DNA of 64,000 bases, taken from the NCBI RefSeq assembly GCF_900110145.1, contig NZ_FOCP01000007.1, positions 62,001-126,000 on the forward strand, read 5' to 3'. The stretch is from Nitrosomonas marina (GTDB taxonomy: Bacteria > Pseudomonadota > Gammaproteobacteria > Burkholderiales > Nitrosomonadaceae). Each line of letters begins with the position of its first letter. Within the stretch, counting starts at the first letter, position 1. The position numbers and the translations under genes were made by a program. The notes below the pieces were generated by a model. It was given only the letters and a program-made list of their open reading frames with translations, was not told where the DNA came from and ran no database searches. Below, piece by piece: positions 54,450-56,210 of this stretch.

Positions 54450-55982
54450 CTATACCTGTGGGTGCGCGCGTTCCAGCTTGCTGTGCAATTTATTCAGTGC
54501 ACTCAAATAAGCCTTAGCAGAAGCGACGACTATATCCGTATCTGCGCCATGACCGTTGACGATACGATCGGATTTTTGTAAACGGACAGTCACTTCTCCT
54601 TGTGCATCGGTTCCACTGGTAATATTGTTAACCGAAAACAGTTGAAGCTGCGCTCCGCTTCTCAGGAGTTTTTCTATGGCGCAAAATGTCGCGTCAACCG
54701 GACCGCTACCGTCCGATTCCGCCTGCATTTCATTACCATGATCGGAAATAACGATACAAGCATATGGAGTTTCACCCGTTTCACAACGTATTTTTAAAGA
54801 CAACAGACGATACCGTTCCTGCGGCACAAGCGCTTCATCCGAAACCAACGCCTGCAGGTCCTCATCAAAAATTTCATGCTTTTTATCTGCTAACTCTTTA
54901 AATCGCATAAATGTATTGTTCAGCACTTCTTCAGAATCCAGCTCAATACCGAGCTCTTTTAACCGGCTACGAAACGCATTACGACCGGAATGTTTGCCGA
55001 GCAGCAATTTATTCGCTCCCCAACCCACGTCTTCTGCTCGCATAATTTCATAAGTTTCACGATGCTTTAATACACCATCCTGGTGAATGCCAGACTCGTG
55101 CGCAAATGCATTGGCACCCACAATCGCCTTATTGGGTTGCACAGGAAAACCTGTAATACCTGAAACGAGTTTACTGGCTGGCACGATGTGTTTCGTGTTG
55201 ATTTTTGTATCACACGTGAAGTAATCCTGGCGTGTTCGAACAGCCATTACGATTTCCTCCAATGATGCGTTTCCAGCGCGTTCACCAAGTCCGTTAATGG
55301 TGCACTCAACCTGGCGCGCTCCATTCAATACTGCTGATAATGAGTTTGCGACAGCAAGTCCAAGATCATTGTGACAGTGGACTGAAAAAACAGCCCGGTC
55401 CGAATTGGGTATCCTTTCACGCAATGTACGGATTAATTTGCCAAATTGCTCAGGCATGGTATAACCAACAGTATCCGGAATATTAATTGTTTTAGCTCCA
55501 GCCTCGATAACTTTCTCAATGATTCTGCATAAAAAATCAATTTCAGAACGTCCCGCATCTTCAGGTGAAAATTCGATATTGTCGGTATATTCACTTGCCC
55601 ATTTGATTGCTTTAACCGCTTGCTCTATCACCTGCTCTGGCGACATACGCAGTTTATTTTTCATATGGATGGGAGACGTCGCAATGAATGTATGAATACG
55701 CGAAGGGCCGGTATTATCAAGGGCATCCCCTGTTCGTCTGATATCCGCCTCTATTGCACGTGCCAAACCGCAAACTATACTTTCCTTGACCGATTCGGCC
55801 ACAGCCCTGACCGCCTCAAAATCACCATTAGACGCTGCAGGAAAGCCTGCTTCAATCACATCTACACCCATTTGCTCCAGTTGCCATGCAATGCGCACCT
55901 TCTCTTCCTTGGTCATGGAAGCACCTGGGCTTTGCTCACCATCACGCAATGTCGTATCAAAAATAATTAAATGTTCTTGCAT
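54450..55982 (-). CDS. leuA: 2-isopropylmalate synthase
   Basis: First step of leucine synthesis: acetyl-CoA plus 2-ketoisovalerate. The N-terminus [18 protein letters not shown] holds the metal-ligand Asp; [14 protein letters not shown] supplies the His ligands; [14 protein letters not shown] follows. A C-terminal allosteric domain (from about 395) binds leucine. 510 residues from the ATG at 55982, which has GGAG about ten bases upstream; ten more codons of open frame are not family-like. The 230-bp leader holds a candidate leucine-rich leader peptide and hairpin. Confidence 0.97.
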
Positions 55983-56015
55983 CTGTAGCTCCGTTCCTGG
56001 ATGAAATATCATACT

Positions 56016-56048
56016 CGGGATATAAAACCCGTTCAGTGGGATTTTATA
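56016..56048 (-). promoter_or_regulatory. Attenuator-like alternative hairpins upstream of leuA
   Basis: On the minus strand TATAAAATCCC (56048-56038), loop ACTGAAC, GGGTTTTATA (56030-56021) gives a 10-bp stem with one bulge ending in a U-rich arm, as in an intrinsic terminator. CGGG at 56031-56028 can instead pair with CCCG at 56019-56016, which would break that stem. The hairpin lies 33 bases after the leader-peptide stop and 39 bases before the leuA ATG. Roles are inferred. Confidence 0.45.
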
Positions 56049-56080
56049 AGTTTGAAAGAAAAAGGAGGGATTCTAGATAT

Positions 56081-56170
56081 TCAGCGCACAAGGCGCAGCA
56101 GCCACCAGAATTCTAAAGAACTTGGCAACAGGGCAAGGAAATAATTAGGATATGAGAATGGTATACACAT
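56081..56170 (-). CDS. Candidate leuA leader peptide, leucine-rich
   Basis: 29-codon frame on the minus strand, too short to be found by usual gene callers. It encodes seven leucines, with a C-terminal cluster LEFWWLLRLVR that includes adjacent CTG-CTG codons and a nearby CTT. A second ATG directly before it (56173) may be the start. No ribosome site is present, and the apparent promoter would start transcription only about 3-6 bases upstream, so it would be read as a leaderless message. A short GC hairpin (GCGC-CTTGT-GCGC) covers the leucine codons. I infer attenuation by leucine supply; not proven. Confidence 0.45.
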   Translation of the reverse strand: MCIPFSYPNYFLALLPSSLEFWWLLRLVR

Positions 56171-56181
56171 CATAATTCAGA

Positions 56182-56210
56182 AATATAAATACTTTTTTTA
56201 TTTTGTGCAA
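56182..56210 (-). promoter_or_regulatory. Sigma-70 promoter of the leuA leader
   Basis: TTGCAC (56210-56205), exactly 17 bases, then TATATT (56187-56182) on the minus strand. The -10 matches the consensus at five of six positions. It begins 4 bases after the pssA stop, so leuA can be expressed apart from pssA. Start of transcription is expected near 56175. Confidence 0.5.

Follow-up and report, generated by a model that had tools for sequence, protein, structure and literature searches.

The leuA gene of Nitrosomonas marina is preceded by a short, Leu-rich leader frame which, as judged by comparison across genomes, is real and widespread. We consider it quite probable that this leader is a leader-peptide, ribosome-based leucine sensor for leuA. 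It lies on the minus strand of the stretch of DNA analyzed here, 64,000 nucleotides in all, which we call the window and in whose numbering all positions are given.

Layout of the leuA leader

The leader sits between pssA and leuA. The leuA gene itself (54450 to 55982, minus strand) encodes 2-isopropylmalate synthase, with matches above the cut-offs to the NCBIfam models NF002087, NF002086, and TIGR00973, and is 99% identical to that of Nitrosomonas marina strain Nm71. Its Shine-Dalgarno sequence, GGAG, can be read at 55989 to 55992 (minus), and in all 61 genus loci the 18 nt that precede the leuA ATG contain GGAG. We recognize the adjoining frames as what we take to be ilvB, ilvN, ilvC, psd, and pssA; a glance by eye upstream of 61156 revealed nothing clear in the way of an ilvB leader. 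Elsewhere in the window, 6S RNA (Rfam RF00013, 41242 to 41418, plus strand) and the bacterial small SRP RNA (RF00169, 13300 to 13398, plus strand) scored above gathering.

Toward leuA, and always on the minus strand, the leader region opens with a promoter read from the sequence (56182 to 56210), in which the −35 box TTGCAC (56210 to 56205) and the −10 box TATATT (56187 to 56182) are 17 nt apart. Eight nucleotides beyond it, as the initial annotation had described, the doublet ATG ATG begins at 56173 and opens the leader frame (56081 to 56173), for which a near-leaderless start is predicted. The frame has 30 codons plus TGA from the first ATG and the 29 originally counted from the second, seven of them for Leu, a content of cognate codons such as a classical attenuator would have. 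It closes on W-W-L-L-R-L-V-R, with TGA at 56083 to 56081, so that the LLRL ending and the stop noted earlier are there as well.

Within the frame, immediately 5′ of a Leu-Leu codon pair (CTG CTG, 56096 to 56101), lies hairpin A (56101 to 56129), recognized by a folding scan and by covariation. Hairpin B (56084 to 56096), with the form GCGC-N5-GCGC, covers the last codons of the frame. Then come a G-poor, pyrimidine-rich, unstructured tract (56049 to 56080), delimited by base composition and folding windows, and, 5′ of leuA, hairpin C (56021 to 56048), identified by its folding window and the strongest covarying column pair.

Conservation in the genus, order, and class

The core (C/T)TGCGC-N5-GCGC, which belongs to both the leader frame and a hairpin and includes the second Leu of the pair, served as the search anchor. 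We searched 61 genomes, comprising that of the window and 60 others from its genus. A full leuA was found in 60 of them (the other, G057, gave a weak match only, to another gene or a fragment), and the core precedes the gene in 59 of these 60, the window's own included. The sole genus genome with leuA and without the core (G048, locus L036) carries other DNA upstream of the gene, possibly an insertion, and is perhaps a natural loss of the leader.

The wider collection held 145 loci, with some genomes present twice; 99 have the anchor and 46 do not. The anchored loci are 60 from the genus (59 genomes, with G022 contributing a second, partial copy, L061), four (L062 to L065) retrieved by a pattern of the anchor itself, and 35 others. 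Removal of near-identical loci left 81, and these, together with 29 of 65 order-level loci that were not thinned for likeness, make up a set of 110. Order and class are here what we take to be the Burkholderiales and the Gammaproteobacteria in the GTDB sense.

Leaders were also sought by an anchor-free scan, requiring an ATG or GTG with a −10-like box 5 to 11 nt before it, a frame of 15 to 48 codons, and a Leu-rich end, with the expectation taken from dinucleotide shuffles. The resulting counts are non-independent because the genomes are related. The scan recovered 94 of the 99 anchored loci (3.05 expected) and 22 of the 46 loci without the anchor (0.45 expected). At the order level outside the genus it recovered 40 of 65 loci, where shuffles predict 0.55, and at the class level 29 of 69, where they predict 1.2. 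Two of the order-level hits (L225 and L232) look spurious and three of the class-level hits (L263, L283, and L288) doubtful; L165 to L167, which are the genus again, were left out of the order-level scan. The initial annotation had staked its reading on Leu codons and a frame that recur upstream of leuA in relatives, and both are conserved there. Nitrosospira, Nitrosovibrio, Aromatoleum, and Methylophaga are among the named carriers; Nitrosomonas eutropha and Aromatoleum are examples of carriers that can be cultured.

The scan fails at 25 of the 65 order-level and 40 of the 69 class-level loci. Several of the class-level misses (L237, L242, L256, L260, L269, and L287) show a Leu-rich end and a stop hairpin by eye. 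At the order level, the scan leaves leuA without such a leader at L187, L191, L207, L218, L219, L226, L227, L230, and others. Since the scan is negative there and the DNA before leuA looks coding by eye in several of these loci, the leader was lost or never gained in those genomes.

Promoter and predicted near-leaderless start

In all 99 anchored leaders, an in-frame ATG stands 6 to 11 nt behind a −10-like box (mostly TATATT), start finding having favored ATG over other starts. The spacing is 6 nt in 13 leaders, 7 in 29, 8 in 20, 9 in 3, 10 in 32, and 11 in 2. From this ATG the frames run for 26 to 34 codons, with a single exception of 40 (L145), and the −35 boxes agree with TTGACA at 3 to 5 of six bases. 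Given this spacing and the usual distance from a −10 box to the start of transcription, the 5′ untranslated region (UTR) would be about 0 to 4 nt long. The proposal that the leader message has almost no 5′ UTR is in this way supported by promoter spacing across relatives.

The same proposal had called a missing 5′ UTR unusual for an attenuator. Two counterexamples, in the parts of their sources available, speak against this: S. meliloti trpL (PMC7298713) and S. lividans leuL1 (PMC8079986). Leaderless mRNAs are also on record in the Betaproteobacteria, again in partial sources, for Cupriavidus metallidurans, where they account for 4.67% of primary starts (PMC7563307), and for Burkholderia cenocepacia (PMC4603805).

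A promoter scan of 501 bases returned four box pairs, compared to 1.6 expected by shuffle. A rival box pair, TTGGGA-17-TATAAT (56303 to 56275, minus strand), lies inside the end of pssA and rates 10/12, compared to 9/12 for the leader promoter.

Leu codons and signs of translation

The first Leu of the pair falls outside the anchor and is Leu in 105 of the 110 loci, encoded by CTG in 72, TTA in 14, TTG in 11, and CTA in 8. The residue is kept while its codon varies, as a tRNA sensor would need. Over 43 close genus pairs, which are not independent of one another, pN/pS was lowest at the end of the frame (0.27), 0.50 in its first part, and highest over hairpin A (0.89). This substitution pattern, with its ratio of 0.50 in the first part, suggests that the leader frame is translated.

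Hairpins and the unstructured tract

Taken whole, the leader of the window is no more stable than its shuffles (z = −0.67), 46 of 200 of which fold at least as well. Over the 81 loci, hairpin A has a mean z of −1.43, compared to 0.05 for an upstream control, and a z of −1.58 in the folding-scan window from −30 to 0; it is also more stable than synonymous-codon shuffles (z = −1.26). Covariation in a fixed register reaches 0.272, compared to a shuffle mean of 0.159 (0 of 500 shuffles reach it) and at most 0.145 when the register is slid, and cells changed on both sides number 128, compared to 71.2 in shuffles (again 0 of 500). The number of hairpin A pairs with two-sided change, 8, is not above shuffles (492 of 500 reach it). 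The share of paired cells is low, 54.5 and 62.5% in the two parts of the hairpin, because the register shifts between genomes.

Hairpin B, in the window from 0 to +30, has a mean z of −2.10 over the 81 loci; its sequence is invariant by choice of the anchor, and its conservation is circular within the anchored set. In the 110 loci, the first 35 nt after it are 25% A, 28% C, 7% G, and 40% T. The C/G ratio of the tract, 3.84, exceeds those of the first part of the frame (1.93), of the sequence beyond hairpin C (1.51), and of a control that lies further upstream, mostly inside pssA (0.96). The folding energy of windows from +6 to +48 is about −0.2 kcal/mol, and the alignment shows that the tract is similar in sequence within the main clade.

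Hairpin C, in the window from +48 to +78, has a mean z of −3.40 over the 81 loci, and its end lies mostly 30 to 52 nt (range, 19 to 59) from the leuA ATG. In a column-wise covariation search of 50 loci, in which 14 column pairs were listed, it holds the strongest pair; in the other 13 no helix was seen, and hairpin A was absent. The initial annotation had named a strong hairpin with a U-rich arm. The hairpin stands, at 56048 to 56021 with −7.7 kcal/mol and a U-rich 3′ arm, against a leader that as a whole folds no better than shuffles.

An RNA model of hairpins A and B (R1) proved weak outside the order. It gave 18 class-level matches besides the window's own, of which two (L149 and L152) precede an ordinary leuA and two (L147 and L148) bear a similar leader; of the other 14, eight lie inside frames of more than 150 codons and four (L154, L160, L161, and L163) have no frame line. 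In five genus genomes the leuA leader was the top match each time, all five being in the model's own alignment. By eye, hairpins A and B do not keep the consensus bases of an RNA polymerase pause signal, and this candidate was dropped.

Search for pairing partners of hairpin C

The initial annotation held leuA to be attenuated by mutually exclusive stems. The 5′ arm of hairpin C pairs with upstream sequence no better than shuffles (z = 0.12). When nine leader segments were set against each other in the 110 loci (36 pairs), the strongest pairing was that of hairpin A's own arms (z = −1.03, t = −8.1). Slight excesses were seen for the 3′ arm of hairpin A with the tract (z = −0.35, t = −3.2), for the tract start with hairpin C (z = −0.24, t = −2.3, the best pairing of any segment with this hairpin), and for the first half of the tract with the leuA start region (z = −0.24, t = −2.5). 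A few isolated column pairs link the hairpin A region to hairpin C by covariation (6.3 sd), and they form no helix. The segment-pairing tests yielded no antiterminator that would compete with hairpin C.

The alternative stem, which we take to be CGGG at 56031 to 56028 facing CCCG at 56019 to 56016, does exist, but over the 110 loci the hairpin C region pairs with the segment that follows it at a level near chance (mean z = −0.20, t = −1.7). A second strand mimicking the 5′ arm of hairpin C, seen by eye in some loci, was dropped since it is missing from others. Outside the main clade, inspection of the tails by eye found no conserved U-tract after hairpin C, and the terminator scan of the window made no minus-strand call there, its sole match at that site being on the plus strand. 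With hairpin C pairing upstream at most slightly, and with neither the U-tract nor the alternative stem kept, classical attenuation of leuA is not supported by these sequences.

The gamma branch and a leader before another synthase

In a set of 151 loci that lack the beta anchor, a hairpin covers the stop codon of a Leu-rich frame in 40, compared to 1.05 expected. A more specific arrangement, a 4-pair stem with a G-N-CG loop and CG soon after, is present in 34 of the 151 (5.65 expected) and in 1 of the 110 beta loci. On reading, 30 of the 34 matches look like a single motif. The loop base and the downstream base are G and C in 26 of the 34, G and T in three, A and T in two, and something else in three. 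The A-T cases (L278 and L291) are the covariation expected of an H-type pseudoknot, which is the likely structure in about 30 gamma loci. Example loci for the stop-codon hairpin or pseudoknot, among L062 to L301, are L277, L278, L287, and L291.

At L148, a leader of the beta kind is followed after about 230 nt by a 2-isopropylmalate synthase of the yeast type, which scores above the cut-off of NF002991. This locus belongs to another family of the class, and its genome (G205) also bears an ordinary leuA, whose upstream region (L262) fails the scan. L147 has a similar leader, its sequence ending too early to identify the downstream gene. Since a similar leader precedes a different synthase, the leader would seem to belong to leucine synthesis rather than to one gene lineage.

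Discussion

We imagine that the leucine sensor would work as follows. The transcript would begin at the leader ATG or no more than a few bases away, and a ribosome would enter at its 5′ terminus. A shortage of charged leucine tRNA would stall this ribosome at the Leu pair, where it would keep hairpins A and B open; with leucine plentiful, it would complete the leader frame and leave. The position of the ribosome would then set leuA expression. Transcripts reading through from pssA, having no 5′-terminal ATG, would presumably escape the sensor.

As no competing antiterminator was found, our leading guess for the output is that Rho terminates transcription on the tract, hairpin C serving as a pause site or 3′ boundary. 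The tract has features of a Rho loading site, being unfolded and G-poor with a C/G ratio of 3.84, but C is only 28% of it, which makes Rho somewhat less likely; within the sensor reading it is a tentative guess, falling short of even odds. A stalled ribosome covers about 12 nt ahead, according to the available part of the source (PMC4833913), so that from the Leu pair it would extend no further than roughly the stop codon. For both reasons, the Rho reading would need a further step.

Several observations count against the sensor as a whole: most of the Leu codons are CTG, pssA contains a rival box pair, the genomes are related, and the scan misses a share of loci. A wider reading would be a class of leucine sensors across the Beta- and Gammaproteobacteria that operates without a competing antiterminator, with entry at a 5′-terminal ATG, Leu codons between hairpins, a G-poor tract read by Rho or in some other way, and, in the gamma branch, a stop-codon hairpin that is in part an H-type pseudoknot. 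We regard this wider generalization as a real possibility, though not yet a probable one. If it is true, much of the Beta- and Gammaproteobacteria would run leucine synthesis through a sensor that family libraries have missed, and a leader-peptide switch would not have to rest on two exclusive stems. Sensing would also be bound to one promoter, since only a transcript starting at the ATG gives the ribosome its start.

That hairpin C is a weak intrinsic terminator of a classical attenuator, its antiterminator pairing having been missed, seems unlikely to us. In the main Nitrosomonas clade this hairpin does have an A-tract and a U-rich 3′ arm (UAAAAUUCG/CGAGUUUUA), and the slight pairing of the hairpin A 3′ arm with the tract and of the tract start with hairpin C, like the single columns covarying between the hairpin A region and hairpin C, could be traces of such a switch. 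Yet these excesses are small beside that of hairpin A's own arms among the 36 pairs, the covarying columns build no helix, the 5′ arm of hairpin C finds no upstream partner beyond shuffles, and both a terminator call at this site and a U-tract conserved beyond the main clade are missing. We would give about the same low weight to a post-transcriptional role, in which the ribosome's position alters how well leuA mRNA is translated or how stable it is, perhaps by way of a site within the tract for ribosome standby or for cleavage. The fairly steady distance of hairpin C and the tract from the leuA start fits this role, and the actinobacterial LEU element has been interpreted as nonclassical, in the part of the source available (PMC1262725). 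Pairing with the leuA start region, however, is not seen for the tract or for the Leu-hairpin B segment (z = 0.40 and 0.43), and in the 36-pair test the second half of the tract (0.41) and the Leu-B segment (0.39) do no better, leaving only the slight excess of the first half of the tract.

Two further readings look for the signal in the leader's products. The ribosome might be stalled by the nascent peptide itself, through endings of the kind LLR-x-(A/V/G)-R in beta and LRLLP-like in gamma loci. The ending is kept, with its pN/pS of 0.27, and peptides resembling LANVLLAxLLLRLAR recur in several order-level families. The LLR-x-(A/V/G)-R ending is present in 101 of the 110 loci, a count that is partly circular, both Arg codons (CGC) and the second Leu being fixed by the anchor, and its intervening residue varies (L in 49, P in 28, R in 10, and F in 8 of 110), which makes this reading improbable in our view. 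Slightly less credible still is a terminated leader that also acts in trans as a small RNA or peptide, in the manner of S. meliloti rnTrpL/peTrpL, a precedent taken from the available part of PMC7298713, with the tract as a seed against Shine-Dalgarno sites. An unstructured, pyrimidine-rich tract between hairpins, alike within the main clade, would suit such a seed, but other reasons could keep a tract unstructured. That the frame arose by chance in an AT-rich gap, with no real leader, might be argued from a whole leader no more stable than shuffles; recurrence far above shuffles and codon-level selection so strongly disfavor it that we give it next to no weight.

The leader looks to be little described. 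Among the literature matches listed, we recognized no description of it for Betaproteobacteria or nonenteric Gammaproteobacteria; PMC2965389, PMC3032703, PMC4603805, and PMC7563307 do not describe it in the parts available, and PMC4833913, likewise in part, treats leader genes in general. A search of Rfam (4227 families) gave no match at gathering score in the leader region or in 17 loci. At looser limits, four below-gathering matches in the leader region (E up to 10) and, among six loci, four miRNA models in L234 (E of 0.00033 to 0.32, below gathering) were taken as chance. None of seven leader peptides matched Pfam, and in NCBIfam the two matches obtained fell far below cut-off (E of 0.36 and 2.2).

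Comparison with known leaders

The systems compared here are described as they appear in the available parts of their sources. The leuL leaders of enteric bacteria and Shewanella resemble the present one in placing a small frame with Leu codons before leuA and are taken as sensors of charged leucine tRNA; E. coli leuL has 28 residues, four of them Leu (PMC6123439). The Shewanella leuA attenuator has terminator and antiterminator stems (PMC2659441), whereas no antiterminator was found here, where the start is predicted to be near-leaderless. Campylobacter LeuL, a 28-residue peptide with C-terminal Leu codons before leuABCD, is similar too, and its RNA ends soon after the stop (PMC3847290). A translation start signal has been observed for it (PMC11955535); it was found via an upstream ribosome binding site and is thus not leaderless, in contrast to the start predicted here, and the available parts of its sources mention no hairpins flanking its Leu codons.

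The actinobacterial LEU element is a pseudoknot with a base stem formed by Leu codons and the leuA Shine-Dalgarno sequence (PMC1262725). Its peptides differ from those found here, and a base stem of this type was not seen between the Leu-hairpin B segment and the leuA start region (z = 0.43 and 0.39). S. meliloti trpL has the type of start predicted here, being an attenuator small frame on a transcript that begins with ATG (PMC7298713), and differs in responding to tryptophan, in its classical two-structure attenuator, in its 14-residue peptide, and in its known trans-acting products (PMC7298713). S. lividans leuL1, like the leader of N. marina, places a frame with a run of Leu codons before leuA; leuL1 is reported to be leaderless and to do without a typical terminator (PMC8079986).
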